Source: a bacterium (GTDB lineage Bacteria > Campylobacterota > Campylobacteria > Campylobacterales > Sulfurimonadaceae). Taken from it: DNA of 53,336 bases. Position numbers and translations under genes: made by a program. Positions 892 to 51,625 of this stretch are shown here, piece after piece. The stretch covers positions 1 through 53,336 of the forward strand of contig JAHJEG010000021.1 of the NCBI GenBank assembly GCA_018825665.1. The letters are read 5' to 3'. Under the pieces are notes generated by a model. It saw only the letters and a list, made by a program, of their open reading frames with translations. It did no database searches and was not told where the DNA came from. The stretch's first letter is position 1. Each line of letters opens with the position of its first letter.

Positions 892-1935
892 TTAGAGGGT
901 GAATTTTGAGTTTTTGAGAATATTCTCTATGATATCCTGATAGTATTTCTTTTGTTCATTATTACCAAGGGCTACCGGCGGTTCACCCTTATCCGAAGCT
1001 TCTCTGATTTGCATATCCAGAGGGATACCGCCTAAAAAAGGCACTTCGTACTTTTTGGCGATTTTTTCACCGCCGCCTGAGCCGAAAATATCATATCTGT
1101 TTTTTGTATCCGGTGCTATGAAAAAGCTCATATTCTCAACGATACCCGCCATTTTGACATTGATATCCTTAAACATCATTACGGCACGGCTTACATCGTC
1201 GGTTGCGACGAGCTGAGGGGTTGTCACCAGTACAGCCGCACTTATAGGAAGTTCTTGTGCGATTGTCAGCTGCACATCTCCTGTTCCCGGGGGCATGTCG
1301 ATGACCATAAAGTCAAGTTCTCCCCAGGCCACATCTTCTAAAAACTGGATGAGGGCATTTACCGCAACAGAACTTCTCCACACAAGAGGTGTATCCATGC
1401 TTGGCGTCGTAAGGGCAACACTCATAATCTTAATCCCGTAATTTTCGGCAGGGATGATTTTATTGTTGTCATCCCATTTGATTCTTTGAAGATCCGTATT
1501 GGTCAGACGGGGTATATTCGGACCGTAGACATCGGCATCGAGTATTCCGACCTTGTAGCCTCTTTGCGCCAGGGCGATTGCGAGATTGACACTTACCGTA
1601 CTTTTCCCCACTCCGCCTTTGCCGCTTGTCACGGCTATGATATTTTTTGCATAAGGGGCACGGTTGTTTGGAGCTGCGCTGTTTCCGTAATTCATATCTT
1701 TTTTGGCAGAGAGATTTTTCTTGCTGATATCAAGAGCGCTGAATATATCAGAAAAATTTTCTTCAATCAGTTTTTTTACATTCAAGTAGGACTCATCACT
1801 TATTGTGAGAAGTTCAATCTTGGCTTTGTCCCCGATTACTTTTATATCACCAAGAAGCTTCAGCTCCCCGATACTTCTGTTTATGCCGGGGTATTTTAAA
1901 TCTTGAAGAGCTTTTTTTAAGGTGTTGCTATTCAT
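892..1935 (-). CDS. mrp: Mrp/NBP35-family Fe-S cluster carrier ATPase
   Basis: This is a P-loop ATPase of the Mrp/ApbC family that binds and delivers Fe-S clusters in the cytoplasm. An N-terminal DUF59 (MIP18-like) domain covers about residues 1-80. It is followed by the deviant Walker A GKGGVGKSTVSVNLA, the switch region DADVYGPNIPR, and VIDMPPGTGDVQLT. A CxxC pair common in the family is not obvious. I start at the ATG at 1935 (MNSNTLKK), which has AAGGA upstream, rather than 60 bases further out. The start overlaps the end of the preceding small gene, so LRV protein, unknown protein and Mrp form an operon. The gene converges on the HDOD gene. Confidence 0.93.
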   Translation of the reverse strand: MNSNTLKKALQDLKYPGINRSIGELKLLGDIKVIGDKAKIELLTISDESYLNVKKLIEENFSDIFSALDISKKNLSAKKDMNYGNSAAPNNRAPYAKNIIAVTSGKGGVGKSTVSVNLAIALAQRGYKVGILDADVYGPNIPRLTNTDLQRIKWDDNNKIIPAENYGIKIMSVALTTPSMDTPLVWRSSVAVNALIQFLEDVAWGELDFMVIDMPPGTGDVQLTIAQELPISAAVLVTTPQLVATDDVSRAVMMFKDINVKMAGIVENMSFFIAPDTKNRYDIFGSGGGEKIAKKYEVPFLGGIPLDMQIREASDKGEPPVALGNNEQKKYYQDIIENILKNSKFTL

Positions 1936-2299
1936 ACGGATTCCTTTGCGATTCTCTGGCAAGCAAAGATTTTGTTGCCGTTGCTTTTTGTGCAAGCTTT
2001 GAGAGCATAGCGGCAGAAGCCGGATAATCCATGCTTAGAGAATGGTATTGTTGTATCCTGTCTTGGATAAGAGTGTTTAAAAGCGCTGCTGTTTGATTGA
2101 GTGTACCGTTTTCGTCACTTTTATTGAGAAGCTCTTTTATAAGGAGTTCTCTGGAATTCATCCCCAGTTTCAGCCCTGTCTTTTCACCAATCTGGATAAA
2201 CTCTTTTGCGCTTATGTAAATTCCGGAGAAAAAAGTGTTTAGAAACTGATTTTCAAGAGATGTAAACTTGCTTTTCATGCTTTGTCTGTTTCCTTTCAC
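1928..2299 (-). CDS. Small helical protein between LRV and Mrp genes
   Basis: I do not recognise this protein. It has 123 residues, is probably soluble and helical, and has no Cys pair or signal peptide. It starts at a GTG at 2299 that overlaps the stop of the LRV gene (GTGA) and has GGAGG seven bases upstream. An internal ATG at 2278 is a weaker alternative. Its 3' end overlaps the mrp start. Tight coupling on both sides suggests a role with Mrp, perhaps in Fe-S handling, but that rests on context only. Confidence 0.75.
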   Translation of the reverse strand: MKGNRQSMKSKFTSLENQFLNTFFSGIYISAKEFIQIGEKTGLKLGMNSRELLIKELLNKSDENGTLNQTAALLNTLIQDRIQQYHSLSMDYPASAAMLSKLAQKATATKSLLARESQRNPYE

Positions 2300-2901
2300 G
2301 ATTTTGCCTCCAGATTCATTTGTGCCGCTTTTGCTACGTTTACATCTGAATCATCGCAAAGTTCCTGAAGGATCTCTTTTGGTGCACCGCTGTTTTCAGC
2401 TAAGCGCATCCGTACCATTTTATCCGCGTCATTTGCCAGAATCTTTAGTATTTTTACCGGAGTGGAAGGGTTCCCAGAGAGACCGTCTCTTACTATTTTC
2501 TCATCGCTGAAAAATTTTTCTAAAACAGCGGGAGGCGTCATCGGATTCGTAGCCACCAGAGCGCGAACCAGATTTACCTTGTCTCCGGCAAGATTTACCA
2601 AAACATCCTGAGGGGTATGCGGATTTTTGGCAACAGCCCATCTCGCACCCATATCGGCTTCATTCACAGCCAGATCACGAAGCAGCTCAACCATAGTTTC
2701 GCTGTATTCCTTCTCTCTGTCGTAGACCGAAGTTCTTAAACTTAGATTCATTGCGACCTGTCCGACTATCTCTTTGTGCTCTCTAAAAGGAAAATAGATT
2801 TTTTTTACCGATTCAATATCTAAGCTTCTGTCATCAAGAGCTTCGAGGATATCTTGTTCATTTTTAGTATCTATAGCATTTTGAATATCAATTTTTGACA
2901 T
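2296..2901 (-). CDS. Leucine-rich-repeat-variant (LRV) / HEAT-like repeat protein
   Basis: This 201-residue protein has at least four tandem repeats of about 23-25 residues from about residue 85 to the end. Each has the pattern A-x-NP-x-TP-x-x-x-L-x-x-L-A-x-D, for example AKNPHTPQDVLVNLAGD, ATNPMTPPAVLEKFFSD and SGNPSTPVKILKILAND. This is the LRV type, first known from a nif-linked Azotobacter protein with an N-terminal Fe-S cluster. The N-terminal part here has no cysteines, so no cluster is expected. It is first in the operon with mrp. A scaffold role near Fe-S assembly is plausible but inferred. Confidence 0.75.
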   Translation of the reverse strand: MSKIDIQNAIDTKNEQDILEALDDRSLDIESVKKIYFPFREHKEIVGQVAMNLSLRTSVYDREKEYSETMVELLRDLAVNEADMGARWAVAKNPHTPQDVLVNLAGDKVNLVRALVATNPMTPPAVLEKFFSDEKIVRDGLSGNPSTPVKILKILANDADKMVRMRLAENSGAPKEILQELCDDSDVNVAKAAQMNLEAKS

Positions 2902-3257: not shown

Positions 3258-4400
3258 ATGAAAAAATTGCTAAAAACATTAGTTTTTGCAGCAACATTAA
3301 CATTTACCCCTCTTATGGCAACAGATGAGTATGTAGATAAAGATATTTTAATATCTGCTGAAGATGCTATAAAGTTAATAGGTAAAAAAGATGTTATGTT
3401 TGTTTCTGGAGACAGTGAAGATGTATATAAACTAGGACATATCAAAGGTTCTGTTGAGATGTATGCTCACCATTTACACCATTCAGATATTACTGGAGAT
3501 ATGCACTGTGCACCACTTTATCGTTGTATAGATGATGCGGAGCAATATATAGGTTCAAAAGGCATTGATAACAATACTCTGGTTATCGCTTATGACGACT
3601 TCAAAGGGCCAAATGCTACCGGCGTTTACTCTTTTTTCCACAGTTACGGACACAAAAATGTTAAAGTTTTAAACGGCGGCCGTAATGCTATTATGGAGAT
3701 CGATCCGGCTCAGATTAAATACAATGAAATCAAAGATGAGCTAAAAGCTGAAAAAGACAAATCTAAACCTGCCAGCAAAAAATTAAAAGATGCTAAAAAA
3801 GGCAAGGGGCAATTGACGGATGAGCAAAAAGCTGAATTAACAGCGATTGTTAAAGCCAGCAAAAAAGCTCAAAAAGAGATCAGTGCAAGAATGAAAGCGG
3901 CTGAAAAAGATCTTCTTGTTGTAAAAGGTGAAGAACACGTTGAGCACAAAACATACAAGATAGATAAAGACAAGCTTGATTTTTCATTGATTACAGGCAA
4001 AGAAGAAGTTAGACATGCAATGGAAGACATCAAGAAAAATGGAGATGCTTCCAAATATGTAATTATCGATTCTCGCGGTATGGCTGAAATCATAGGCGAT
4101 AGAAAAATGGATAACGTTGCTCGTGCAGGGCATATTCCGGGTTCAAAGTTTGTTGAATGGAATAAAATTTCAGATATGAAGAACAAAAAGTCTTTCAAAA
4201 CAGCAGCAGAGCTAAAAGAAGTATATGCCACATACGGTATTACTCCTGATAAAACTATTTATGCGTACTGTATGGTTGGTGCCGGTCGTGGATCTGAACA
4301 TATAACGGCTCTTAAACTTTTGGGTTACAAAAACATTAAAGTGTTTACTGGTAGCTGGGATGTTTGGGGTAATGATATGAATTTACCGCTAAAAAGATAA
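3258..4400 (+). CDS. Periplasmic two-domain rhodanese with lysine-rich insert
   Basis: This is a 380-residue sulfurtransferase with a Sec signal peptide (MKKLLKTLVFAATLTFTPLMA, cut near residue 21). Two rhodanese domains are visible. In the first (about 28-145) the active-site position reads AYDDFKGPN, with Asp instead of Cys, so it should be inactive. The second (about 240-378) keeps Cys338 in AYCMVGAGRGS. A Lys/Ala-rich helical insert of about 80 residues (150-235) separates them, which is unusual for the family. Rhodaneses move sulfane sulfur between carriers. As the first gene of the molybdoenzyme operon, it suggests a sulfur compound as substrate or product. It lies 16 bases before the Mo subunit gene. 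Confidence 0.88.
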   Translation: MKKLLKTLVFAATLTFTPLMATDEYVDKDILISAEDAIKLIGKKDVMFVSGDSEDVYKLGHIKGSVEMYAHHLHHSDITGDMHCAPLYRCIDDAEQYIGSKGIDNNTLVIAYDDFKGPNATGVYSFFHSYGHKNVKVLNGGRNAIMEIDPAQIKYNEIKDELKAEKDKSKPASKKLKDAKKGKGQLTDEQKAELTAIVKASKKAQKEISARMKAAEKDLLVVKGEEHVEHKTYKIDKDKLDFSLITGKEEVRHAMEDIKKNGDASKYVIIDSRGMAEIIGDRKMDNVARAGHIPGSKFVEWNKISDMKNKKSFKTAAELKEVYATYGITPDKTIYAYCMVGAGRGSEHITALKLLGYKNIKVFTGSWDVWGNDMNLPLKR

Positions 4401-4416
4401 GGGAGAGGTTTAAAAT

Positions 4417-7317
4417 ATGACAAAAGTTATGAATAATAAGCGTAGAAATTTCCTTAAAGTTTCGGGAATGACTGCTGCATTGGTTGCTTCTCAAGGTAGC
4501 CTTTTTGCAAAAACAGATGCTATGAGTATCGAAAACGGTAAAAATGATTATCCAAATACAAACTATACGGAAGAGATGTATAGAAATGAGTTCTCTTTTA
4601 CATATGGTAAAAAAGAAGAACATGGTTTTGCATACCACTGTGTAAACTGTCAAGGTAACTGTGCATGGGAAGTTTGGTCTCACAACGGTGTAATTACACG
4701 TGAAAACCAATCTGCACGCTATCCTGTTATCAATGCTAAAATACCTGACTTTAACCCTCGTGGTTGTAACAAAGGTGTACAGCATTCACAGGTAATGTAC
4801 CAAAAAGACAGAATCCTTTATCCGATGATCCGTACAGGTGAGCGTGGTGAAGGTAAATGGAAACGTGCAAGCTGGGATGAAGCTGCTGAGAAAATCTGTC
4901 AAAATATTTTTGATACTTTGACTGATCCGGAACGTGGTCCGGATAAATTGATGGTACACGCGGGTACAGGTCTTTTAACTGAAGGGCGTCGTGGTTCTGT
5001 GCTACGTTTCTCTACACAGTTGGGTGCGAACCGTATTTATCCGTCGTCATACCTGGGGGATATGTTCTCCGGTGCTGCTATCGCGTACGGCGAGGGTAAC
5101 CTTGGGTGTACTTGGGACTTTATGTACACAGTGGATACAGCTGTTATGTGGGGTGGTAATCCATCTGTTTCACGTATTCCTGATGCTCACTTTGTTTGGG
5201 AAGGTAAATATAACGGTGCTAAAATCATCGTAATTACTCCAGAATTCAATGCTACTGCAAAGTCGGCTGACCTTTGGATCCCTATTAAAGCCGGTTCTGA
5301 TAATATCCTGGCGATGAGTGTTATTCATGAAATCTTAAATGATAAAATGTATAAACCTGAATTTGCCAAACTTTATACAGACTTACCATTCTTAGTAGAT
5401 GTAAAAACGCAAAAAATGATTCGTCGTAATGATTTAGAGCATACACAAAACAAAGAAGACCACCATAAATGGGATGAGCAGTTCTATTGTATGAATGAGA
5501 CTGACGGCAAGCCTTTCTTAATGCCGGGAACTGAAGGTCACGATAAACGTACACTTCGTTTACCGGCAAATGTTAAACCTACTTTAGAGGGAACATGGAC
5601 GATAAAAGATGTTCACGGACACAATAGAGAAGTGACAACAGTATTTGAGATGCTGAAAAAATCAGCTTCAAAATTTGCTCCTGAGGCTACTAAAGATATC
5701 ACGGGTGTTCATCCGGAAACAGTGAAACAATTGGCAAAAGATATTGCACTTCCAAAAGTTGTAGAGATTACTACAGGGTTCTCTCTTAACAAATACTTCA
5801 ACGGTATGATGACTATATGGAATGTTGCATCTATCTGTGGTTTAACCGGACGTATGGGACCATACGGCGGATTAAACACTGAAAATGAGTTTCAATTATC
5901 AGGTCTTGGCGCACTCTCTGGATTCAGCGGTAAATATGCTCCGCGTTTTGGTTCAGGTTTCGTAGGTGAGTTCATGAACGGTAACGGGATGAAAACATTT
6001 GACGAGTATTTCAATGATGAAGATGTGAAACGTGCACAAAACGGTATGAGCAAGAAAGAGTATATGACTGTACTTCAAGAGATGCTTGATGCCGGTAAAA
6101 ACGGTGGCGACAACATGACAAGCAAGCATGGAAATGTTGTAAAACCTTGGTGGTTGCCAACAACTGCTCTTATCGTTGCCGATTCTACTTTTAGACGTAA
6201 CAAGGGGAACGAGTACCGTAAAGCTTTCCTAGGAAGAATGGACTTCTTTGCTTATGTTGATTACAGAATGAGTGAAGCTGCACAGTACGCTGATGTACTT
6301 CTGCCTGCAAAAAGCCACTATGAGGTATACGACCTGAGAACATCCCCGGGTTACCACAGGTTTACCAACTTGGCTCAACCGGTTGCAAACATCAAAAATG
6401 TTGGTGAAGCTATGGATGAATGGAGTATGTTTACACTTTTGGCTAAGAAACTTGAAGAGATCGCTAAGCGTCCTCAAAATATAGCAAAAGCAAAAGTAAA
6501 AGACGATGTTCGTTATGCCAAACCAGGTTTCCATGACTTGACTATATTCCATAAAGAATACACAAATACTGATGAAGAGTCTGAGGGAGAGGGTGAAGTT
6601 TACCTTGGTACTGATAAAATGGCTGTTGAAGCTGCTTTGGAAAAATGTGATCAGTATCAGCCTTGGACAATTGAAAAAATGTACAAAATGGGCGGTTTCT
6701 TACTTATTAATGATAAAGCGGCACAAACATCTCCGCTCTATTCTGATAAGCCGTACAATTCAAATGAAAACCATATGTACAAGTTTGAACCTTTACATAC
6801 GATGTCCGGTCGTCAGACTTTTTATGTTGATCATGAAATGTATATTAAGATGGGTGCAGCTACAAATACAGGTATGGAGGGTATCCGTCCACAGCGTGAA
6901 GAGTATCCGTATGTGCTTATGACTCCACATGCCAGATGGTCTATTCACTCGAATTATAAAACTTCTCGTACATTGCTTCGTTTACAACGTGGTGTACCGG
7001 CAATGCAAGTGAACCGTGTTGTTGCAGAAGCAAAAGGGATCAAAGATGGAGATACAATCCGTATTTTCAATAATCTTGGAGAATTCTTTGCAATGGCAAA
7101 ACTAAGTTCTTCTGCACCGGCTGATGGTCTTGTTATGGAGCATGGATGGGAACCGTACATGTATAAGTTCAACAAAGGTCACAACGAAGTTGTACCTACA
7201 TCTCTTAACCTATTAGAGATGGCAGATGGCTGGGGTCACCTTAAATTCGGTGGTCTTTGGGACGGTAACCAATATGCATATGATGGCGCCGTAAATTATG
7301 AAAAAGCAAAAGTTTAA
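4417..7317 (+). CDS. Type II DMSO-reductase-family molybdopterin catalytic subunit
   Basis: This 966-residue catalytic subunit carries Mo-bis-MGD. It has a Tat signal (RRNFLKVSG, residues 9-17), so it is exported folded. The N-terminal Fe-S cluster ligands fit the NarG/type II pattern: His74-x3-Cys78-x3-Cys82 and Cys117 in RGCNKG. Cys75 is an extra cysteine. The proposed Mo ligand is Asp215 in SSYLGDM, as in the NarG, EbdA, SerA, ClrA, PcrA and DdhA group. The SD GGGAGAGG precedes the ATG. Members oxidise or reduce very different substrates (nitrate, selenate, (per)chlorate, ethylbenzene, dimethyl sulfide), so the substrate cannot be read from the sequence. One copy of the CCACATGCC motif lies at 6925-6933 as codons for Pro-His-Ala. 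Confidence 0.9.
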   Translation: MTKVMNNKRRNFLKVSGMTAALVASQGSLFAKTDAMSIENGKNDYPNTNYTEEMYRNEFSFTYGKKEEHGFAYHCVNCQGNCAWEVWSHNGVITRENQSARYPVINAKIPDFNPRGCNKGVQHSQVMYQKDRILYPMIRTGERGEGKWKRASWDEAAEKICQNIFDTLTDPERGPDKLMVHAGTGLLTEGRRGSVLRFSTQLGANRIYPSSYLGDMFSGAAIAYGEGNLGCTWDFMYTVDTAVMWGGNPSVSRIPDAHFVWEGKYNGAKIIVITPEFNATAKSADLWIPIKAGSDNILAMSVIHEILNDKMYKPEFAKLYTDLPFLVDVKTQKMIRRNDLEHTQNKEDHHKWDEQFYCMNETDGKPFLMPGTEGHDKRTLRLPANVKPTLEGTWTIKDVHGHNREVTTVFEMLKKSASKFAPEATKDITGVHPETVKQLAKDIALPKVVEITTGFSLNKYFNGMMTIWNVASICGLTGRMGPYGGLNTENEFQLSGLGALSGFSGKYAPRFGSGFVGEFMNGNGMKTFDEYFNDEDVKRAQNGMSKKEYMTVLQEMLDAGKNGGDNMTSKHGNVVKPWWLPTTALIVADSTFRRNKGNEYRKAFLGRMDFFAYVDYRMSEAAQYADVLLPAKSHYEVYDLRTSPGYHRFTNLAQPVANIKNVGEAMDEWSMFTLLAKKLEEIAKRPQNIAKAKVKDDVRYAKPGFHDLTIFHKEYTNTDEESEGEGEVYLGTDKMAVEAALEKCDQYQPWTIEKMYKMGGFLLINDKAAQTSPLYSDKPYNSNENHMYKFEPLHTMSGRQTFYVDHEMYIKMGAATNTGMEGIRPQREEYPYVLMTPHARWSIHSNYKTSRTLLRLQRGVPAMQVNRVVAEAKGIKDGDTIRIFNNLGEFFAMAKLSSSAPADGLVMEHGWEPYMYKFNKGHNEVVPTSLNLLEMADGWGHLKFGGLWDGNQYAYDGAVNYEKAKV
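6925..6933 (+). repeat. Intragenic CCACATGCC copy in the Mo subunit gene
   Basis: Plus-strand copy; in frame it reads Pro-His-Ala. Confidence 0.9.
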
Positions 7318-7326
7318 GGAGCATAG

Positions 7327-8454
7327 ATGTCAAAAAGACAATTAGCAATGGTTATGGACCTGAACAAATGTATCGGGTGCCAAACATGTACAGTAGCATG
7401 TAAAACTCAATGGACAAACCGTAACGGTCGTGAGTATATGTATTGGAACAATGTTGAAACTTATCCGGGTACAGGGTATCCAAAAAATTGGATGGAGTTA
7501 GGCGGCGGTTTTGATGCTGCCGGTGATTTACAGCCTGGTATTATTCCTAATCTTGAAGCAGACTACGGTGTGCCTTGGGATTATAATTATGATGCACTTC
7601 AAGGCGGCGCATCATTTGAGCCAAACGTAGAACCGACATGGGGACCAAACTGGGATGAAGATGAGGGTGCCGGTGTTTTTCCACAAGACAACTACTTCTT
7701 CTACTTGCCTCGTATTTGTAACCACTGTACAAATCCGGGTTGTTTAAGTGCGTGTCCTCGTGATGCAATCTTCAAGCGTGAGCAAGACGGTGTTGTGTTG
7801 GTTGACTTAGACAGATGTCAAGGGTACCGTTATTGTATAGCGGGATGTCCTTACAAAAAAATCTATTTCAATCCGAAAATCTCAAAATCTGAGAAATGTA
7901 TTTTATGTTTCCCAAGAATTGAGCAGGGTCTTCCGCCGGCATGTGCACAACAGTGTGTTGGGCGTATCCGTTTTGTAGGTTTCTTGGATGATACGGAAGG
8001 TCAGGTGCACAAACTTGTGAACAAGTACAAAGTAGCGCTTGGTTTAAGAAGTGACTATGGAACACAGCCAAATGTTTATTACGTACCGCCGACCGAATCA
8101 CCGGCTAAGTTTGATGCTGATGGTAAAATTATTGAAGGTTCAACTCGTCTTCCAATCGAAGAGTTAGAGAAACTATTTGGTCCTGAAGTTCATCAAGCGA
8201 TTAAAACATTAAAAGCTGAAATGAAAAAACGTAAAGAGACAGGAGAAAGTGAATTGATGGATATCCTGATTGCATACCAGCATTCAGATATGTTCCGTCT
8301 TGATAATAACTATTATCAGCAAGTAGCAAAGGACAATGGTCACAAGGCACTTGCTCCGGTAGACAACCGCTATATCGCTGGTAAATTTACTAAAAATTCT
8401 CATGAAATGAACTTCTTTCATGGCGGAGATTTCAAAGCTGGAGGGCATCACTAA
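7327..8454 (+). CDS. Type II DMSO-reductase-family Fe-S electron-transfer (beta) subunit
   Basis: This 375-residue NarH/DdhB/EbdB-type subunit has four Cys groups: CIGCQTCTVACK near the N terminus, CNHCTNPGCLSACP, CQGYRYCIAGCPYKK, and CILCFPRIEQ followed by CAQQC. In relatives the third group reads CxGW and holds a [3Fe-4S] cluster. Here Tyr replaces Trp, so a [3Fe-4S] cluster is still expected. There is no signal peptide, so it should be co-exported with the Tat-bearing alpha subunit. It passes electrons between the alpha FS0 cluster and the heme subunit. It starts nine bases after alpha, with AAGGAG upstream, and its stop overlaps the next ATG (TAATG). The tail is His-rich. Confidence 0.92.
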   Translation: MSKRQLAMVMDLNKCIGCQTCTVACKTQWTNRNGREYMYWNNVETYPGTGYPKNWMELGGGFDAAGDLQPGIIPNLEADYGVPWDYNYDALQGGASFEPNVEPTWGPNWDEDEGAGVFPQDNYFFYLPRICNHCTNPGCLSACPRDAIFKREQDGVVLVDLDRCQGYRYCIAGCPYKKIYFNPKISKSEKCILCFPRIEQGLPPACAQQCVGRIRFVGFLDDTEGQVHKLVNKYKVALGLRSDYGTQPNVYYVPPTESPAKFDADGKIIEGSTRLPIEELEKLFGPEVHQAIKTLKAEMKKRKETGESELMDILIAYQHSDMFRLDNNYYQQVAKDNGHKALAPVDNRYIAGKFTKNSHEMNFFHGGDFKAGGHH

Positions 8455-9656
8455 TGAAAAAATTAGCTAGTACAATAGTAGCAGCCGGTCTTATCGCATC
8501 GTCGGTAGCGGCTGACTCTGCTATTACAGCGGTTAAAGTTAATGCTGACCTGGATAGAGTAAACTATAAGTCGGCGGTGTGGAAGGATGCCAAGTTTTCT
8601 ACGGTAACTTTATATCCTCAGACAACTATAGAGTTTAACGACAAAAAAGCAAATGCTTTAAATACAGCCAATAAGGCTGTAAAAGCTAAAATTGCAGCCG
8701 TTTACAATGACTCAAGAATAGCATTTTTAATCGGATGGTCTGATGAAACAAAAAATGTTACAACTGGAACTAAAACAGATGAGTATGCAGATGGTTTTGC
8801 CGTACAGTTTGCAAGTAACTCTACGAATCCTAAAGAACTTCCATATATAGGTATGGGTTCTGATGGACGTCCGGTAGTTATACATCTTCAAAAAGAAGCG
8901 ATCGGTGTTTTTGAACCAAACGGTAACGGGGATGTATCTCATCAAATCAATCCTAATCAGACAGATTTGTTTGGAGAAGATCTTAAAAACTTTAACAAGA
9001 AAGTTAAGCGTCTAGCAAGTACAGACTATGAGAGAAGTTTTGTATCTGAAGGTTTCCGTTCAATGACGGAGATTAAAGATGCAAGCAACAAATCATACTC
9101 CCGTATCGGTTATGCAAGCGGCGGATGGTCCGGAACAGTTTCCCGTCCATTAAAAGACGAGTATGTTAATTTAAATGCTGCTTCAATCCCTGTTGCATTT
9201 GCTGTATGGGACGGAGAAAAAATGGGCCGTAACGGTCTTAAGAATCTTACAGCTTGGACAGCAGTTAAACTTGAGGGCAAAAAAGGCGGAGACGCTTTAG
9301 TTACTGCACTTCATGGAAAAGTTGCCGGAGATGCTGCAAAAGGTAAAGAAGCTGCTATGATGAACGGCTGTACGGGCTGTCACCAAATGGAAGCAACAGA
9401 TGCTGCTAACCTGATGGGACCATCTCTTACAAATATCGGCGGTTATTCAACTGTGGATTATTTAAGAGAATCACTAGTGAACCCTTCAGCCGTAGTAGTT
9501 CCGGGTTACAATAGAAATGCGCATAGCAATTATGCATGGTATAACATTGAAAACGGTAAGAGAGTATCTACAATGCCTGATCACAGTTGGATGGAAAAAG
9601 CCGACCTTGATAACATTGTTGCGTATTTAAAAACTTTAAAAGCGGAGGTTAAATAA
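8454..9656 (+). CDS. Heme-b (EbdC-like) / cytochrome c fusion gamma subunit
   Basis: This is a 400-residue periplasmic subunit with a signal peptide (cut near residue 20). Residues about 25-280 resemble the heme-b-binding ethylbenzene dehydrogenase gamma domain. Candidate axial ligands by analogy with EbdC are Met134 (YIGMGSDGRP) and Lys272 (WTAVKLEG). Residues about 285-400 are a class I cytochrome c domain with CTGCH (306-310) and a likely distal Met374 (STMPDHSW). In the known enzymes the gamma subunit usually stops at heme b, so the fused c-heme makes a built-in exit to or entry from periplasmic carriers. No membrane anchor subunit follows, so the complex should be soluble. TAATG overlaps join it to both neighbours. 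Confidence 0.85.
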   Translation: MKKLASTIVAAGLIASSVAADSAITAVKVNADLDRVNYKSAVWKDAKFSTVTLYPQTTIEFNDKKANALNTANKAVKAKIAAVYNDSRIAFLIGWSDETKNVTTGTKTDEYADGFAVQFASNSTNPKELPYIGMGSDGRPVVIHLQKEAIGVFEPNGNGDVSHQINPNQTDLFGEDLKNFNKKVKRLASTDYERSFVSEGFRSMTEIKDASNKSYSRIGYASGGWSGTVSRPLKDEYVNLNAASIPVAFAVWDGEKMGRNGLKNLTAWTAVKLEGKKGGDALVTALHGKVAGDAAKGKEAAMMNGCTGCHQMEATDAANLMGPSLTNIGGYSTVDYLRESLVNPSAVVVPGYNRNAHSNYAWYNIENGKRVSTMPDHSWMEKADLDNIVAYLKTLKAEVK

Positions 9657-10135
9657 TGAAAACATTAAGTTTAATTACTTCAGCTTTGGCACTTGGTGCA
9701 ATGATTCTGTTGAGTGGCTGTAGTTCAAAAGAAGCTATGTCTCCAGAAGCTTCAAAAGCAGTTCAAACTGCTAAGGCTCCTGCAAAGTTGGTCCATATCG
9801 AAAAAATGGGCTTTCTTACGCTAGAGAGATGTGCTGAAGCGGGTGAATTTTTAGATTGTTATCTTGAAAACTACGCATGTGGTTCAAATGGCTGTTATGA
9901 AGAATTTGACCCGGGTGTATTTGGAAAGATTCAAATAGTTCTTTACTCACACGTCGACGGTATCAGCTATAAGGTGGACGTATCTAAAATAGATCCTGCA
10001 TTAATAGACAAAGGTATCAATCGTAACGATGTGACGCTTATCGGTGAATACGATGCAGAAGCAAATATATTATATGCTACTGAATTTAAAGCACCGCCAC
10101 CACCTAAAAAGTCTTTCTTCAAAGGCTGTTTATAA
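9656..10135 (+). CDS. Cys-containing lipoprotein of the molybdoenzyme operon
   Basis: I do not recognise this family. The 159-residue protein has a type II signal with lipobox LLSGC (Cys22 lipidated). The mature part has clustered cysteines (RCAEAGEFLDC, then YACGSNGC) that could form disulfides or bind metal. It ends in a proline-rich stretch and Cys-Leu. GGAGG lies seven bases before the ATG, and the start overlaps the gamma stop. A strong terminator follows, so it is the last gene of the operon. Inference: it could tether or mature the otherwise soluble complex at the membrane. Confidence 0.8.
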   Translation: MKTLSLITSALALGAMILLSGCSSKEAMSPEASKAVQTAKAPAKLVHIEKMGFLTLERCAEAGEFLDCYLENYACGSNGCYEEFDPGVFGKIQIVLYSHVDGISYKVDVSKIDPALIDKGINRNDVTLIGEYDAEANILYATEFKAPPPPKKSFFKGCL

Positions 10136-10137
10136 TT

Positions 10138-10171
10138 CTTAAAGCCATTTGGCTTTAAGAGGTGTTTTTCT
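10138..10171 (+). terminator. Rho-independent terminator of the molybdoenzyme operon
   Basis: CTTAAAGCC (10138-10146) and GGCTTTAAG (10151-10159) form a perfect 9-bp stem with loop ATTT. A T-rich tract, GTTTTTCTT, follows. It ends the rhodanese-to-lipoprotein unit and separates it from the torD gene. Confidence 0.85.
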
Positions 10172-10289: not shown

Positions 10290-10865
10290 ATGAACAAAGA
10301 GTACAGACTCTACATTTACGCATTTCTTTCAAGAACTATGGCTGGAACGGCTGACAAAAGATATATAAGTGATTTACGTAACAATACAGACTTGCTTGAA
10401 CTTCTTGGTGAGGACACAAAAGAATGGTTTTTAAATAATGATGATGAAACTATTTTGGATGCCCTTAATGAGGATTTCTCATCTATGTATGTTATCAATA
10501 CGCAGGCTGTGGAGTCCTTTGTATTGGATGCCAAGAATGAAACCCTGGTAGGATTGCAAAATCCGGTTATGAACTTTTATTATAAAAACGGTTTTGAACT
10601 CAATATGGACCAAAGTGAACTCATGGCACCGGATCATCTTTCAATAGAGTTCGCCTTTATGCAGACACTGGTATTTCGGGATGAATACAAGCCCCAATAT
10701 GAATTTTTGAAAGAGCATCTCTTTAACTGGGTGGTTCCTTATATGATTGGCATGAAAAGTATGGCTTTGACACCTTTTTACAGCGATCTTTGTGACTTTA
10801 TCGTGGAATTTATTGTCGCAGATTTTGAGTACTGTTCAGCCGAGATGGAGAACAGAAGTGAATGA
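10290..10865 (+). CDS. TorD/DmsD-family molybdoenzyme chaperone
   Basis: This 191-residue all-helical cytoplasmic protein belongs to the TorD/NarJ/DmsD superfamily. Supporting features are the start YRLYIYAFLSR, the central DFSSMYVIN, and the family motif region near MAPDHLSIEFAFMQ (about residues 117-130). These chaperones bind the Tat signal of a molybdoenzyme and hold it until cofactor loading. The most likely client is the alpha subunit upstream. The gene is its own unit behind a terminator and overlaps the ferredoxin gene. An AGGA motif precedes the ATG. Confidence 0.85.
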   Translation: MNKEYRLYIYAFLSRTMAGTADKRYISDLRNNTDLLELLGEDTKEWFLNNDDETILDALNEDFSSMYVINTQAVESFVLDAKNETLVGLQNPVMNFYYKNGFELNMDQSELMAPDHLSIEFAFMQTLVFRDEYKPQYEFLKEHLFNWVVPYMIGMKSMALTPFYSDLCDFIVEFIVADFEYCSAEMENRSE

Positions 10866-11949
10866 TTTAACATTTGTACAAAAATCTGAGCTCTTTTCCT
10901 ATAGCGGGACAAACTGTATCAGAAATGACTACTATCACAATGCATGCCAAAAATGTGTTGATATTTGCCCTGAGAATGCATTAAATATAGTACGGAACAA
11001 ACTGGTGCTTTTTTCAAATGAGTGTATTGAGTGTGCCGGTTGTATCGGTTCTTGTCCTACCGAGGCGCTTAGTATAAAAAGTTTTGATCCAAACGCATAT
11101 ACTGCAAGTTTTAAAGAGAACAAGGAAAAGCTCTTGTCTTGTAAAAAAACTACAACATGTTTGGGAGCTTTTGATGCGCATCATTATATAACGATGGGAT
11201 TAAACTCACCGGAGATGCCTCTGTGCGACATGGCACATTGTGAGGGGTGTGCGGTCAACAAAGACTCAAAAATCGAATCATTTATACGCTCTGAAATACA
11301 AAAAGCAAATGATTTTCTCTTGGAATGCGGGATAGAAAATAGAATCAACACAATAGAAGAAAAGCCGGAAGACGAAAATAGCAGAAGAACAATATTCAAA
11401 GCGGCGTTTTCTAAAGTCAAGGATGCCGCCAAAGAGAAGGATACCTCTTCAGTATCTATGACGATAGCCCATCAGAGAAATCCCAATACAAACGGACTGC
11501 CTTTAAAGCATTTACATTTAAAACAGGCATTAAAAGCGAATCTATCGAAATTGACAAAAACAAGGCATGAAACAAATTTTGGTATATTTGCAAAAAAAGA
11601 GATCAGTTTTACCGATTGTACAAACTGTGGTGACTGTATACAGTTTTGCCCGACGGGCGCCTTGTTGAACACATCTGATAAACAGGGGATAAATTTCAAT
11701 GTTGGGGATTGTATCGCCTGCGGCATATGCGATCATATTTGTAAAACAGATGCTATAAAAACAGCGGATGGAATTGATCTGGTCAATGTCGCGTATGACA
11801 GAGGAGAGCAATTAGTACATTATGAAATGGTGATGTGTCACGAATGCAGATGCCCTTATCCGTACCGTGGCGGAGATCCTATCTGTGACAGATGCGCAAA
11901 TTATAAAAAAGATTTCGAGCATGTGTTTACCCTGGCTAGGGATGTATAG
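10858..11949 (+). CDS. Polyferredoxin with four 4Fe-4S motifs
   Basis: I place the start at the GTG at 10858, which overlaps the torD stop and has GGAG seven bases upstream; an earlier in-frame ATG lies inside torD. The 364-residue cytoplasmic protein has two N-terminal clusters (Cys20/30/33/37 with QKCVDICP, and CIECAGCIGSCP). Two more lie in the C-terminal half (CTNCGDCIQFCP and CIACGICDHICK), followed by a CHECRCP...CDRC zinc- or cluster-like tail. It is similar in style to NapF and to ferredoxins found beside TorD genes. Coupling to the chaperone suggests a role in maturation or electron supply before export. That role is inferred. Confidence 0.82.
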   Translation: MNDLTFVQKSELFSYSGTNCIRNDYYHNACQKCVDICPENALNIVRNKLVLFSNECIECAGCIGSCPTEALSIKSFDPNAYTASFKENKEKLLSCKKTTTCLGAFDAHHYITMGLNSPEMPLCDMAHCEGCAVNKDSKIESFIRSEIQKANDFLLECGIENRINTIEEKPEDENSRRTIFKAAFSKVKDAAKEKDTSSVSMTIAHQRNPNTNGLPLKHLHLKQALKANLSKLTKTRHETNFGIFAKKEISFTDCTNCGDCIQFCPTGALLNTSDKQGINFNVGDCIACGICDHICKTDAIKTADGIDLVNVAYDRGEQLVHYEMVMCHECRCPYPYRGGDPICDRCANYKKDFEHVFTLARDV

Positions 11950-13986: not shown

Positions 13987-15249
13987 TTATAGCAGACCAA
14001 GCAGTGCAACAAAAAGCACGGGCGGCGTAATGAGAAGTCCCACCTTCATATATTCGCCCCAGGTGATTTTTACACCTTTGCCGGCTAAAACATGCAGCCA
14101 AAGCAGTGTCGCAAGTGAACCGATAGGTGTCATCTTTGGTCCTAGGTTGGAGCCCAGGATATTTGCATAGACCAATGCTTCATTGCCCGCGTACCCAACA
14201 TGCTCAATCGCTATATCCATAATCATAATAGTAGGCATATTATTCATAATAGAGCTTACTATGGCAGATAAAAAGCCTGTTCCAATAATAGCGACTGTAG
14301 TCCCGTGTCTGTTTAACTCTAGTATCCAAGAAGCTATTACATCGGTAAGACCTGCATTTTTAAGACCATATACAACGACATAAAGTCCTATACTGAACCA
14401 TACGACCTGCCAAGGAGCCGCTTTTATCGTCATAATGGGTTTTACAGCTTTATAATGATTCGCTATAGCTAAAAATATCAAAGCTCCCCCAAGAGCAAAG
14501 ACGGATACAGGAAGATTATAAAAGTCTCCGATAAAATAGCCAAGCATTAAAAGACCTAAGAAAACCCAAGAAAATTTAAACATGGTTTGATTTTTAATAA
14601 CCGAAGAGGCCTCCGGAAGGGTGGAGACATCAATGCTAAAAGGGATGTCTTTGCGAAAATAAATCCAAAGAACAACTATAGAAGCAAATATTGCCAACAG
14701 ATTCGGTAAAAACATATTTTTTGCATATTCAACAAAACCTATGTCGAAATATCCAACCGTCACTATATTGGTAAGATTTGAGATGACCAGTGGATTTGAA
14801 GCACTGTCGCCGATAAAACCGCCTGCCATTAAAAAAGCAAATATTGCCAAAGGTTTCATCTTTAAGTATTTCATTTTAGCAAGCAAGATAGGTGTCAGAA
14901 TCAGTGCCGCTCCGTCATTTGCAAAAAATGCGGCAACTAGAGCACCTAAGAGGAGTATGTATACGAACATCTTATGTCCATTGCCTCCGCTAAGCTTTGC
15001 CATCTTAATAGCTGCCCACTCAAAAAAACCTATCTCATCAAGCACCATAGAGAGAATGATAATCCCTATAAAAGCCAAGGTGGCATCCCATACAATATCG
15101 ATGACAGTAAATACATCTGTAAAATTAACGACTCCCGCCAATAAGGCTACAACCGCTCCAACCACTGCCGTAGTGCCTATTTGAAGACCTTTTGGCTGCG
15201 AAATTACAAATACCAAAGTAATTAAAAAAACTAATATTGCTAATGTCAT
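13987..15249 (-). CDS. arsB: ArsB-type arsenite efflux permease
   Basis: This polytopic inner-membrane permease of about 420 residues belongs to the ArsB/ion-transporter superfamily, with about 10-12 hydrophobic segments. Conserved stretches include FFANDGAALILTPI (about 110-123), GGFIGDSASNPLVISNLTN (about 145-163) and NILGSNLGPKMTPIGSLAT near the C terminus. It exports arsenite or antimonite, driven by membrane potential. I start at the ATG at 15249, with GGAG five bases upstream, rather than the adjacent GTG. It diverges from arsI-arsR-arsC-arsP across a 123-bp region with an ArsR-like operator. Confidence 0.9.
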   Translation of the reverse strand: MTLAILVFLITLVFVISQPKGLQIGTTAVVGAVVALLAGVVNFTDVFTVIDIVWDATLAFIGIIILSMVLDEIGFFEWAAIKMAKLSGGNGHKMFVYILLLGALVAAFFANDGAALILTPILLAKMKYLKMKPLAIFAFLMAGGFIGDSASNPLVISNLTNIVTVGYFDIGFVEYAKNMFLPNLLAIFASIVVLWIYFRKDIPFSIDVSTLPEASSVIKNQTMFKFSWVFLGLLMLGYFIGDFYNLPVSVFALGGALIFLAIANHYKAVKPIMTIKAAPWQVVWFSIGLYVVVYGLKNAGLTDVIASWILELNRHGTTVAIIGTGFLSAIVSSIMNNMPTIMIMDIAIEHVGYAGNEALVYANILGSNLGPKMTPIGSLATLLWLHVLAGKGVKITWGEYMKVGLLITPPVLFVALLGLL

Positions 15250-15302
15250 CACATCTCCATCTCTATTTTATTATCGTAACTATATCTAAATAAAATCTAA
15301 AT

Positions 15303-15332
15303 ATCAATATATCTTGATTTAATGATTATAAT
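15303..15332 (+). promoter_or_regulatory. Candidate ArsR operator and promoter
   Basis: An inverted repeat ATCAA-N6-TTGAT (15303-15318) lies immediately upstream of a TATAAT -10 box (15327-15332), so a bound repressor would cover the -35 region. ArsR-family operators commonly have ATCAA-type arms. The position between the divergent arsB and arsI genes fits control of both directions by the ArsR encoded here. The assignment is inferred from layout. Confidence 0.6.
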
Positions 15333-15372
15333 ATGCTACAATTTGTCAATTTAAAATAGTTATGGAGATTCT

Positions 15373-15828
15373 ATGAGAAGATTACATTTGCATATATCAG
15401 TCAAAGACTTGGAAAAAAGTGTCAAGTTCTATACTGCACTTTTTGGTATGGAGCCTACAAAACTCAAAGCAGACTATGCTCAGTGGTTAGTAGATGACCC
15501 AGCAATAAATATGGCTATTTCAACTGGAAGAGATAAAAAAGGCTTAAACCATCTAGGACTGCAAGTAGACAGTGATAAAGAGGTGCAAGAGTTAGAAGAG
15601 AGACTTCAAGCGGCCGGTGTTTCAGGAGAGAAGCAAAAAGAAGCAGTCTGTTGCTATGCAAAATCTAACAAATACTGGGTACAAGACCCAAGTTCTATCA
15701 TATGGGAAAACTACCATACTATGGAGCAAGTAGAGGTATTTGGAGGGGACACATTTACAGGCGGTACAGGCTGTTGTGAACCTACTTTTAGTAAAAATGG
15801 GCAGTGGTCTACAGGTGCAAGTTGTTAG
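15373..15828 (+). CDS. arsI: ArsI/CadI-type glyoxalase-fold protein (candidate C-As lyase)
   Basis: This 151-residue vicinal-oxygen-chelate protein has the two-half fold (LHISVKDLEKSVKFYTALFG, then LNHLGLQVDSDKEV). Likely metal ligands are His7, His60 and Glu112 (IIWENY). The vicinal cysteines Cys93-Cys94 (AVCCYAKSNKYWVQDP) match the trivalent-arsenic site of ArsI, which cleaves the C-As bond of methylarsenite. A second Cys pair occurs near the C terminus (TGCCEP). CadI-type proteins are similar, so cadmium or arsenic induction is also possible. As the first gene of the ars operon next to arsP, it favours organoarsenical detoxification. Confidence 0.8.
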   Translation: MRRLHLHISVKDLEKSVKFYTALFGMEPTKLKADYAQWLVDDPAINMAISTGRDKKGLNHLGLQVDSDKEVQELEERLQAAGVSGEKQKEAVCCYAKSNKYWVQDPSSIIWENYHTMEQVEVFGGDTFTGGTGCCEPTFSKNGQWSTGASC

Positions 15829-15831
15829 GCT

Positions 15832-16155
15832 ATGGATGTTTTTTTAAAAAGCGTCTCAGCATTAAACGATGAGACAAGAGTGCTTCTGCTTCGTTTTTTA
15901 GATGAGCATGGAGAGTGTTGTGTATGCGATATGCAAAGTTCATTCAATATGATTCAGTCGCGTTTATCACGACACTTGAAAATATTAAAAGATGCTGGAT
16001 TTTTACGAGTAAATCGTAAAGGAACCTGGGCGTATTACTCTATCAGAAGTCCATTGGACCGCTTTCGTAGCGAAGCTTTGGAAGAGATTCGTTATTTAGA
16101 TATCGAGCTTCCGCCCTTAAAAAAATTATCTCAAACAGGAGAATGTAAACTATGA
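15832..16155 (+). CDS. arsR: ArsR-family arsenite-responsive repressor
   Basis: This 107-residue winged-helix repressor has the metal-binding motif ECCVCDM (Cys29, Cys30, Cys32) followed by the DNA-reading helix region IQSRLSRHLKILKDAGFL and a wing at RKGTWAYYSI. It resembles the classical ELCVCDL type, in which As(III) bound by cysteines releases DNA. It starts three bases after arsI and overlaps arsC (ATGA). It probably acts on the operator at 15303. Confidence 0.93.
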   Translation: MDVFLKSVSALNDETRVLLLRFLDEHGECCVCDMQSSFNMIQSRLSRHLKILKDAGFLRVNRKGTWAYYSIRSPLDRFRSEALEEIRYLDIELPPLKKLSQTGECKL

Positions 16156-16556
16156 AAAAAAATGTACTGGTTTTATGTACGGGAAACAGTTGCCGCTCGA
16201 TTATGGCAGAGGCATTGATAAACGCTAAACTTGGAGAGTGTATCCACGCTCAAAGCTCCGGTGTAAAAGCAAGCGGTGCTGTCAATCCAAATGCCCGGGC
16301 TCTTTTAGAAAAGAAAGGTTACTGGAGCGAGGCGTATCACTCAAAAGTTATTGAGACAGTTTTGGATACTCCTTTTGATTTGATTGTAACCGTATGCGAC
16401 CATGCAAAAGAGACCTGCCCTATGTTTCCAAAGGCCGTTAAAACGATACATATGGGTTTTGATGATCCAAGCGGTAAAGCAATAGAAGAGTATGAAAAAA
16501 CATTGGATTTAATTGAGAAGGAACTTCTGCCAGTAGTCAAAGAGGAGCTTTGCTAA
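16152..16556 (+). CDS. arsC: Thioredoxin-coupled arsenate reductase (LMW-PTP type)
   Basis: This 134-residue arsenate reductase has the low-molecular-weight phosphatase fold. The P-loop CTGNSCRS uses Cys9 as nucleophile. The redox pair Cys82 and Cys89 (TVCDHAKETCP) matches the Cys10/82/89 triad of plasmid pI258 ArsC, so reduction should use thioredoxin. It produces arsenite for ArsB export. It overlaps arsR by 4 bases and abuts arsP with no gap. The thioredoxin-like protein at 17514 could be a reductant. Confidence 0.95.
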   Translation: MKKNVLVLCTGNSCRSIMAEALINAKLGECIHAQSSGVKASGAVNPNARALLEKKGYWSEAYHSKVIETVLDTPFDLIVTVCDHAKETCPMFPKAVKTIHMGFDDPSGKAIEEYEKTLDLIEKELLPVVKEELC

Positions 16557-17501
16557 ATGTGGTATGAACTCTCAAAAGAGTTTATCTATAGTACCCTTGG
16601 ACTTGAAGGAAAACTGGCTGATGCTATTCACTTTTTTGTCTACGACACTCTAAAGATCTGGTTTTTACTGCTTACGATAATTTTTGCAGTTTCATTTTTG
16701 CGGACTTGGGTGAATACAGAGTATGTACGTGCTCATCTGCAAGGAAAGTCGTCATTTTACGGGCATGTGGGAGCATCCCTTTTTGGAATTATCACACCTT
16801 TTTGTTCCTGTTCGGCTATTCCCCTTTTTTTAGGCTTTATTCAGGCACGAATTCCTATAGGGGTCACGTTTAGTTATCTGATATCCGCACCTATGAATAA
16901 TGAGATCGCAATCGCTATGCTCTTTGGTATCTTTGGATGGAAGGTTACTTCAATCTATATTGTCTTTGGTCTGAGTGTAGCTATTGTCGGCGGCTGGATA
17001 ATAGGAAAGCTTGGTATGGAAAAAGAGATTTTAATGGATGTAAAACCGATTGAAGGTGAGCTTGAAGCCACTTTGGTGAAGCTGACATTAAAACAAAGAG
17101 CAAAAGAAGCATGGAACTACTCCGTAGATATTTTCAAAAAAATATATATCTATGTCATGATCGGCGTAGGCGTAGGTGCATGGATACATGGATATATACC
17201 GACAGATTTTATCGCACGCTATACAGGAGAAGGTAATCCGTTTGCCGTTATTATCGCTGTGCTTATGGGGATACCGATGTACTCTAATGCGGCTGGTGTT
17301 ATGCCGCTTGTAGAAGTTTTAACCTCGAAGGGGATGTTGCTTGGAACAGCACTTAGTTTCATGATGGCAGTAACCGCATTGAGTCTTCCTGAAGCTTTGA
17401 TATTGAAAAAAATCATCTCACTCAAACTCATTGGTCTCTTTTTTGCTATTGTCGGAAGTGGAATCATTACAATCGGGTATCTGTTTAATTTTATATTATA
17501 A
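16557..17501 (+). CDS. arsP: DUF318/ArsP-type membrane permease
   Basis: This 314-residue membrane protein has about eight hydrophobic segments. It carries the DUF318 signature ITPFCSCSAIPLF with Cys83 and Cys85 and a later GIPMYSNAAGVMPL. In Campylobacter, ArsP exports methylarsenite and organoarsenicals such as roxarsone(III). YraQ-type relatives have unknown cargo. Placement directly after arsC and in an operon with arsI supports the arsenical role. One GGCATGTGG copy lies at 16762-16770. Confidence 0.85.
   Translation: MWYELSKEFIYSTLGLEGKLADAIHFFVYDTLKIWFLLLTIIFAVSFLRTWVNTEYVRAHLQGKSSFYGHVGASLFGIITPFCSCSAIPLFLGFIQARIPIGVTFSYLISAPMNNEIAIAMLFGIFGWKVTSIYIVFGLSVAIVGGWIIGKLGMEKEILMDVKPIEGELEATLVKLTLKQRAKEAWNYSVDIFKKIYIYVMIGVGVGAWIHGYIPTDFIARYTGEGNPFAVIIAVLMGIPMYSNAAGVMPLVEVLTSKGMLLGTALSFMMAVTALSLPEALILKKIISLKLIGLFFAIVGSGIITIGYLFNFIL
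16762..16770 (-). repeat. Intragenic GGCATGTGG copy in arsP
   Basis: In frame it reads within Gly-His-Val-Gly. It is the only copy in the window whose 3' base on the CCACATGCC strand is a pyrimidine. Confidence 0.9.
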
Positions 17502-50420: not shown

Positions 50421-50428
50421 AATAACTC

Positions 50429-50830
50429 CTATTCGTTTTGCAGGGATACTATGGATATATCGCTTGCTTTTATCAGTGCGATGACAGCATCACCGGCTTT
50501 TATATTCATTCGAGATGCGGATCTTTGGGTGATGATGCTCTCAATCACACTCCCTTGTATGCGTATTTTCACGCTGCACAGGATTGTGCCGCTCTCAACA
50601 CTCTCAACGATCCCCTCAATCTGATTGGAGATGCTTATCCCCTTTTGCGGAGTTTTTGCAAGAGAGATATTTGTGGCTTTTGCCCCAATGATGACCTTCG
50701 TTGCGACCTTGAGTTTTTCATTGAGTTCAAGCGAGACCATGCTTATCTGCGTCGAAGACGTATTCAATAAAACTGCTGAAATATTTTCGTATTGCTCAAT
50801 CTCTGCAATCTCGGCGTTGATATAGTTCAT
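50429..50830 (-). CDS. Molybdenum-binding TOBE (Mop) protein
   Basis: This 133-residue protein is made of two Mop/TOBE-like halves; the second ([18 protein letters not shown] to [12 protein letters not shown]) is the clearer. Such proteins bind molybdate and serve as a store or sensor. It overlaps modA by 4 bases and lies eight bases before modB. Confidence 0.85.
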
Positions 50831-51573: not shown

Positions 51574-51625
51574 TGTATTTTTCCTTTATAAAATATTTGC
51601 ATATATTATTCTAAAATACGATTCT

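Follow-up and report, generated by a model that had tools for sequence, protein, structure and literature searches.

A five-gene operon encoding a type II molybdoenzyme together with a rhodanese was found at positions 3258-10135 of contig JAHJEG010000021.1 (assembly GCA_018825665.1), from a bacterium of the Sulfurimonadaceae (Campylobacterota); the whole stretch of 53,336 nucleotides that was analyzed is called the window below. We consider it rather probable that this operon is a sulfane-sulfur dehydrogenase which replaces SoxCD, possesses its own thiol carrier and rhodanese, and delivers electrons to cytochrome c. This view is built on the parts of the operon and their conservation, the co-occurrence of the putative carrier protein with the enzyme, the near-exclusion between the operon and SoxC, and the absence of SoxY from about half of the genomes that carry the operon.

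The five open reading frames follow one another in the same orientation; the first two junctions are gaps of 16 and 9 bases, the last two are 1-base overlaps, and the spacing is that expected of one transcription unit. Their coordinates and order agree with the original prediction, which had described a rhodanese, three molybdoenzyme subunits and a lipoprotein. They are listed here with the evidence for each.

3258..4400, + strand: periplasmic double-domain rhodanese, 380 residues (PF00581; nearest solved structure 1uar; structure model)
4417..7317, + strand: alpha, predicted catalytic subunit of the type II molybdenum bis-pyranopterin guanine dinucleotide (Mo-bisPGD) kind, exported by twin-arginine translocation (Tat), 966 residues (TIGR03479, alignment, tree)
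7327..8454, + strand: beta, four-cluster Fe-S subunit, 375 residues (TIGR03478)
8454..9656, + strand: gamma, EB_dh heme b domain fused to a monoheme cytochrome c (PF09459, PF00034)
9656..10135, + strand: small periplasmic protein, 159 residues, proposed sulfur carrier (tail motif, co-occurrence with alpha)

A total of 40 loci were annotated for gene order. In 39 of them the rhodanese gene immediately precedes alpha and has the same orientation, the 40th being the PcrA-like locus L058, and this conservation excludes chance; the claim that a rhodanese leads the operon thus holds in all 39 annotated loci of the alpha clade. The full set of five genes was found in 38 of these 39, and the remaining locus ends at a contig edge. 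Named genome contigs were also scanned with two exact peptide patterns, which gave 157 relatives, of which the best 80 were kept (complete genomes from other phyla lay outside the scan). Motif counts refer to 120 loci, some of which come from the same genomes.

Distribution of the operon and of SoxC

A sample of 397 Campylobacterota genomes was searched. Alpha was called at E 1e-100, which gave 55 genomes: 54 with an alpha of the window's own clade, called carriers here, and one (G292) with the PcrA-like L058; the operon is a conserved module in the former 54. SoxB (TIGR04486) and SoxC (TIGR04555) were called at E 1e-60, SoxY and SoxZ at E 1e-4, and weaker homologs were counted as absent. SoxC was detected in 92 of the 397 genomes and SoxB likewise in 92, one of which (G199) has a partial SoxB under the curated cut-off. 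L058 was considered as a divergent member of the alpha clade and rejected, being 65% identical to PcrA and giving no rhodanese match, and was left out of the carrier counts. It comprises a perchlorate-reductase-like alpha with a beta (L058:2466-6315), in a genome of family f7 that also has SoxB and SoxC.

A near mutual exclusion of the operon and SoxC was found. Within f1, the family to which the window belongs (all 52 members in the sample), 16 genomes carry the operon without SoxC, 36 carry SoxC without the operon, and none carries both. The 92 SoxB-positive genomes comprise 19 with the operon only, 69 with SoxC only, three with both and one (G285) with neither (Fisher p 1.3e-15 for operon versus SoxC, uncorrected for kinship), and 19 of the 20 that lack SoxC therefore carry the operon. 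Repeated gain or loss was examined on rpoB trees, one of f1 and one of 89 genomes, the latter consisting of the complete f1 plus 37 hand-chosen rows with one or both genes, apart from one with neither; the hand choice of the rows outside f1 favors reciprocity. On the best trees the operon state changed at least 6 times in f1 and at least 15 times among the 89 genomes. All four supported independent pairs in f1 were reciprocal (p 0.125), and among the 89 genomes 11 pairs were supported, with a mean of 9.5 reciprocal, 1.5 showing no difference and 0 changing in the same direction (median p 0.002). One genome (G074) was omitted from the pair test because of a branch length of 10 in the first rpoB tree, probably caused by a wrong reading frame.

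In the window genome, no match to SoxC (TIGR04555) was found at E 1e-60, alpha included, and this family is not among the best 25 of the 26 families matched by alpha. The soxB, soxZ and soxY genes of this genome lie on contig C44, with soxX-like and soxA-like neighbours, soxA being named by size and place only. In family f8, soxB was located 6.5-15 kb from alpha in all six SoxB-positive carrier genomes (of 11 carriers), and in the 16 other SoxB-positive carriers soxB and alpha are on different contigs or far apart. One f8 genome, G258, has an ATP-binding cassette (ABC) transporter of the molybdate type, a presumed substrate, between soxB and the operon. The sox cluster of G258 (L202:1-19001, L206) ends with genes for OprD, a metallo-lactamase, a thioredoxin, DsrE and DUF302 toward the divergent mrp gene of the operon, and the same sox layout occurs at another location in the window genome. 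In G109, which has both systems, soxB, soxZ, soxY and soxC stand together within about 7 kb (L209, contig 26). The case of this genome suggests that a complete sox cassette was gained later.

SoxB-positive carriers resemble organisms with soxABXYZ plus a substitute for SoxCD, and carriers without SoxB resemble soxCDYZ-only strains, which are reported to oxidize S(0) while being unable to use thiosulfate (PMC12403661). The original prediction had pointed to a possibly distinct enzyme with a sulfur-related substrate, possibly oxidized with electrons passed to cytochrome c, and is partly supported. The SoxC exclusion and the sox neighbourhood in f8 lend this strong indirect support, pointing toward the substrate rather than naming it.

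The five proteins and a proposed sulfur path

The small last protein had been read as a lipoprotein, and its likely role as a carrier had been missed. Its Pro-rich tail, PPPPKKSFFKGCL, has Cys158 in the penultimate position (residues 154-159 at 10115-10132), and the ending FFKGCL was found in 101 of 101 complete frames (102 matches among the 120 loci, one running off its contig). The protein is only 38-51% identical to the relatives in its alignment, though the tail is invariant; four further cysteines (Cys59, 68, 75 and 80) in an OB-like (oligonucleotide/oligosaccharide-binding) domain are also invariant in this alignment. It occurs in 54 of 54 carrier genomes and in 0 of the 343 others. A lipobox is present in the protein of the window but absent from most relatives (79 of 102 matches were without one in a crude test), and the constant feature is the C-terminal cysteine. 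The structure model has an OB-like core and a low-confidence tail. No Pfam or NCBIfam family was matched at E 0.001, and in the small-protein alignment of 15 members any Pfam family matched was confined to a single member (best E 0.03). One profile match to a solved structure, at E 1.3, was taken as chance. SoxY (PF13501) gave no match in the window protein at E 0.001 and does not appear in the family list of the 15 members at E 1. The SoxY of the window genome ends in GGCG, and by analogy with the C-terminal cysteine of SoxY the tail of the small protein may serve as a swinging-arm thiol.

Sulfane oxidation could also proceed with another carrier, in which case the substrate would be SoxYZ-bound, or else polysulfide or thiosulfate as a small molecule, and the small protein would have a structural or docking role. 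The proximity of sox genes and operon in f8 suits this, as do the SoxY of 28 and the SoxB of 22 of the 54 carrier genomes (SoxZ was found in 27). However, SoxY, SoxB and SoxC are all missing in 26 of the 54, so SoxYZ cannot be the general carrier, and docking alone hardly accounts for an invariant tail. We regard this alternative as unlikely and retain the small protein as the proposed carrier.

The rhodanese matches PF00581 at 84.6 bits and the structure 1uar with a Z of 29.8 and a root-mean-square deviation of 3.0 over 271 aligned residues. In its model, with a predicted local distance difference test (pLDDT) value of 85, two domains are joined by a long helical hairpin (helices 150-180 and 188-216). 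The catalytic Cys338 of the C-terminal rhodanese domain is invariant and starts a C-x5-R loop (CMVGAGR, 4269-4289) that is one residue longer than the aligned CX4R loop of 1uar; the loop reads CxVG[AT]GR at all 115 loci that gave a rhodanese match (120 examined). The N-terminal domain is without a catalytic cysteine and keeps H71, H74, C84 and C90 invariant in a 16-row alignment (here and below, the window plus 15 relatives), with a C.PL..C motif in 108 of the 115 loci. Residues 71-90, which contain these four, form a possible metal or redox site. In Candidatus Thiovulum stygium (L108:6850-7982) the rhodanese is split into two overlapping frames, covering residues 1-127 and 125-380. A link to ExtH, the selenite/tellurite rhodanese, was dropped as weak (38.8 bits versus 200).

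Alpha has a predicted Tat signal (RR motif in NKRRNFLK) and matches PF00384 and PF01568. The ligands of its iron-sulfur cluster FS0 (H74, C78, C82 and C117) and its molybdenum ligand D215 (5059-5061) align with those of PcrA, EbdA and ClrA and are invariant in the 16-row alignment, in accordance with the exported alpha with an H-C-C-C cluster and Asp215 that had been described. Against TIGR03479 it scores 725.2 bits, below the cut-off of 984.75, and is thus clearly related and outside the curated set; by its ligands and its beta subunit the enzyme is, as judged from sequence, a member of the type II dimethyl sulfoxide (DMSO) reductase family. Its identity is 68-84% to seven relatives tested, 35.9% to ClrA, 31.2% to PcrA and 28.0% to EbdA, the PcrA and EbdA rows being partial. 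In a 13-row tree, built without SerA, DdhA and NarG, the eight Campylobacterales alphas form one clade (100/100 support, branch 1.28) apart from PcrA with a haloarchaeal row, from ClrA and from EbdA, and the order among the clades is unsure because of long branches. The phylogenetic placement called for by the original prediction therefore gave no clade shared with PcrA or ClrA, and on the sequence side the prediction was not refuted by the condition it had set. The Phe-Tyr gate found before the Mo-binding Asp in PcrA (FYDWYGD) is replaced by Pro-Ser/Ala, with YP[SA]SYLGD in 116 of the 120 loci; L058 is one of the four without it. A match between PcrA Trp489 and alpha Tyr507 was present in one alignment and absent in another, and was not used.

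These results bear on the reading of the operon as a reductase of nitrate, chlorate, perchlorate or selenate, which is what the 'narGH' annotations in two published genomes express (PMC9938260, PMC4674564) and to which the best solved relatives of alpha (PcrA, EbdA and NarG) lend some support. The nitrate, chlorate and perchlorate versions were set aside on the tree, the gate residues and the true NapA already present in the window genome, the last being a finding for that genome only. Moreover, an oxyanion reductase leaves the rhodanese, the Cys-tail protein and the SoxC exclusion unexplained, and we hold this reading to be very unlikely.

Beta scores 513.8 bits against TIGR03478, above the cut-off of 480.7, and gamma matches PF09459 (EB_dh, 100.5 bits versus a cut-off of 33.3) and PF00034 (cytochrome c, 40 bits), so that the four-cluster beta and the gamma with heme b and heme c of the original prediction were both recovered. 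Against the narrower TIGR03477, gamma scores 95.5 bits, below the cut-off of 169.85. No gene for a NarI-like membrane diheme subunit or a membrane anchor was found in the operon, again as predicted, the third subunit being the EB_dh plus cytochrome c protein. Invariant residues of gamma in the 16-row alignment are M134 and K263 in the heme b domain and M374 in the cytochrome c domain, which has the motif C306-x-x-C309-H310; alignment with EbdC suggests that M134 and K263 are the heme b ligands. Dimethyl sulfide (DMS) dehydrogenase is a type II enzyme with a heme b gamma which oxidizes a sulfur atom. The heme b of the ethylbenzene dehydrogenase (EbDH) type has Met/Lys ligands and a potential of +256 mV, and a value of +324 mV is on record for DMS dehydrogenase (PMC8840923). 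By analogy, heme c together with the EbDH-type Met/Lys pattern would suit oxidation, not reduction, of sulfane sulfur.

The chemistry and recorded heme b potential of DMS dehydrogenase also speak for a DdhABC-like organosulfur dehydrogenase, oxidizing DMS or methanethiol, but sulfane sulfur, and not DMS, is what one would expect beside a rhodanese and a thiol-tail protein, and the SoxC exclusion would be a coincidence; we give this very little weight. Equally improbable is a sulfur, polysulfide or tetrathionate reductase present by chance in lineages without SoxCD. Sulfurospirillum-type carriers without Sox favor it, and zero-valent sulfur is central to oxidizers and reducers alike, whereas the high-potential heme exit to cytochrome c, as suggested by the EbDH pattern, is unsuited to low-potential sulfur reduction, and Thiovulum and Sulfuricurvum are oxidizers.

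For the sulfane-sulfur dehydrogenase, we infer an oxidative direction and a chemistry in five steps. Cys338 of the rhodanese would take up zero-valent sulfur (from polysulfide, thiosulfate or the Sqr product) and pass it to Cys158 on the flexible Pro-rich tail of the OB-like small protein, acting as a swinging arm. The tail would then enter the funnel of alpha, where the Mo centre (Asp215) would oxidize the sulfane stepwise with water, yielding up to six electrons and reaching the level of cysteine-S-sulfonate. Electrons would flow through FS0-FS4 to heme b, the heme c of gamma, soluble cytochrome c, and an oxidase or denitrification enzyme. Sulfite or thiosulfate would finally be released, with sulfate as the product in organisms that have SoxB.

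Neighbouring genes and taxonomic range

The five structural genes stand as the operon, but the cluster as a whole runs past 10135, where the original prediction had ended it, and includes a TorD-like chaperone and a polyferredoxin. The neighbouring features are as follows.

892..1995, - strand: divergent P-loop protein, presumably of the Mrp/ApbC type (neighbour in 35/40 annotated loci)
1928..2299, - strand: protein between the LRV and Mrp genes, no family match (conserved in place, 34/40 annotated loci)
2296..2901, - strand: LRV-repeat protein, divergent (PF01816, 52.7 bits; 32/40 annotated loci)
10136..10161, + strand: terminator-like hairpin, directly 3' of the small-protein gene, set between the five structural genes and those for maturation
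10290..10865, + strand: TorD-like maturation chaperone (PF02613, 30.1 bits versus a cut-off of 22.2; 35/40 annotated loci)
10792..11949, + strand: cytoplasmic polyferredoxin with two pairs of 4Fe-4S motifs (profile searches; 32/40 annotated loci)

The Mrp/ApbC name was assumed by us from the sequence rather than from a family call. Four terminator-like sites were counted in the stretch, against 6.4 expected in shuffles, and the hairpin is therefore backed by its position only. The polyferredoxin probably functions in maturation, and the LRV-repeat protein is likely an accessory factor of the module: no close relative of it was found in the 36 f1 members without the operon, 12 of which show weak matches (25-39% identity). 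Some of the missed TorD, polyferredoxin and LRV genes are accounted for by contig ends, and some loci of families f7, f4 and f10 are without a match and without a contig end.

Among the 80 kept locus titles (the best 80 of 157), 78 belong to Campylobacterota and two read only 'bacterium' and 'Proteobacteria bacterium' (L081, L148); the titles include Sulfurimonas, Sulfuricurvum, Thiovulum, Hydrogenimonas, Sulfurovum, Sulfurospirillum and Nitratiruptor. Many sulfur-using bacteria from vents, caves and groundwater have the operon where SoxCD is missing. Two or more frames make up alpha in G031, G036, G145, G235 and G251 (L068, L067, L065, L069 and L066, respectively) and in G210 (L060). The breaks are at differing places, the neighbouring genes are present, and some of these genomes are single-contig; one stop is listed in G210, and either sequencing error or decay may be responsible.

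Elsewhere in the window, positions 48883-52411 hold genes for an ABC transporter of the molybdate type, a TOBE protein and a ModE-like regulator, the molybdate assignment being presumed from the TOBE and ModE-like domains. An arsenic-type cluster at 13987-17501 comprises an ArsB pump on the - strand and an arsenate-reductase-like protein and an efflux permease on the + strand; the + strand genes are preceded by frames which we take, from their sequence, to be ArsR-like and glyoxalase-like.

Published context and comparison with known systems

Thiovulum oxidizes sulfur, and no sox, dsr, apr or sulfite dehydrogenase is found in it according to the accessible text of PMC9938260, which for Candidatus Thiovulum stygium describes a six-gene operon in which 'narGH' stands with one gene for a cytochrome c and one without annotation, and reports its rhodaneses as expressed. 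Locus L108 of this organism holds six frames in the order of two rhodanese frames, alpha (78%), beta, gamma and the FFKGCL protein, and appears to be that six-gene operon. For the Zeitz organism (L117), narGH and no Sox are listed in the accessible text (PMC4674564). Sulfuricurvum kujiense, RIFRC-1 and a cave bin are given as being without soxCD, and three of four cave Sulfurovum-like bins have no Sox listed, in the part available (PMC4288042); the operon or its sequenced part is present in L113 and L116, titled with two site names of that paper. The same applies to Sulfurospirillum SCADC and Sulfuricurvum MLSB (L157 and L098), for which soxABXYZ has been reported (PMC4200150). Sulfonitrofixus jiaomeiensis HSL3-7, of which soxABXY1Z1 alone is reported (PMC12403661), would be expected to have the operon as well. 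S. kujiense likely has the operon, judging from its genus, and on thiosulfate alone it formed no S(0) particles in five weeks (PMC6890823).

Several points weigh against the reading of the operon as a SoxCD replacement with its own carrier. Both systems coexist in G109, G248 and G394, and G176, of the Sulfuricurvum type, has SoxC and no operon, while the eight other sampled members of its genus code carry the operon. The pair test within f1 falls short of significance because only four pairs are supported, and selection on a linked trait such as habitat could underlie the exclusion. The carriers without Sox include Sulfurospirillum arcachonense, a sulfur reducer, for which replacement of SoxCD is not the whole story. 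Support for the OB fold of the small protein is weak, with a best Foldseek E of 0.086 and Z values that do not exceed 7.7 and lie within noise. The notion that its tail enters alpha is a guess, and the role of Cys158 might be cofactor binding or docking of the protein instead. With sulfide plus thiosulfate S. kujiense did form S(0), and its thiosulfate-only fluid may hold a dissolved zero-valent sulfur component (PMC6890823). Complete Sox has been reported for Sulfuricurvum bins (PMC10086054), which fits G176.

More tentatively, and with slightly less than even confidence, we propose that Campylobacterales have evolved a second, independent sulfane-oxidation machine, in which a type II molybdoenzyme, a rhodanese loader and a swinging-arm thiol carrier are convergent with SoxCD plus SoxYZ and have been swapped for SoxCD many times; such a machine would account for how Thiovulum, Sulfuricurvum, Nitratiruptor-like and other lineages whose Sox is regarded as incomplete or missing oxidize sulfur. 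Surveys have read absent soxCD in Campylobacterota as oxidation halting at S(0), or sulfur as a minor electron source (PMC12403661, PMC5401914), and missing SoxC has been taken as a sign of secondary sulfur oxidation (PMC5401914). If the operon does the work of SoxCD, those survey inferences would fail for 19 of the 20 SoxB-positive genomes without SoxC, there would be a candidate gene for the missing sulfur step of Thiovulum, and 'narGH' annotations would have to be revised. In the literature searched, which subscription papers were mostly outside of and which was accessible in part, we found no statement that the operon replaces SoxCD, and no literature was found linking a type II DMSO reductase or ethylbenzene dehydrogenase to Sulfurimonas. 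The Thiovulum operon of PMC9938260 is called a nitrate reductase there, with no link to SoxCD or a carrier in the accessible text.

Among characterized systems, ClrABDC of Ideonella and PcrAB share the type II alpha and the four-cluster beta with the operon, ClrA being the nearest characterized alpha compared. They differ in that the operon alpha sits on a long branch as a clade of its own and has no PcrA-type gate, and no rhodanese is annotated in the Ideonella stretch. EbdABC and DdhABC share the layout of a soluble periplasmic dehydrogenase and an EB_dh gamma with the Met/Lys pattern, whereas, compared with EbdABC, alpha identity is low (28%, from a partial EbdA row), the operon gamma has an extra cytochrome c domain, and a rhodanese and a putative carrier are added. 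SoxC belongs to the sulfite oxidase type of Mo-enzymes, a family other than that of alpha. With SoxCD/SoxYZ the operon would share carrier-bound sulfane oxidation with electrons passed to cytochrome c, and it has a proposed carrier cysteine near the C-terminus and stands in for SoxCD in the gene content of genomes; unlike that system, its alpha is a bis-PGD type II protein, its carrier is not SoxY by Pfam, and it adds a rhodanese. On balance we favor the view that the operon works like SoxCD/SoxYZ without being related to either.

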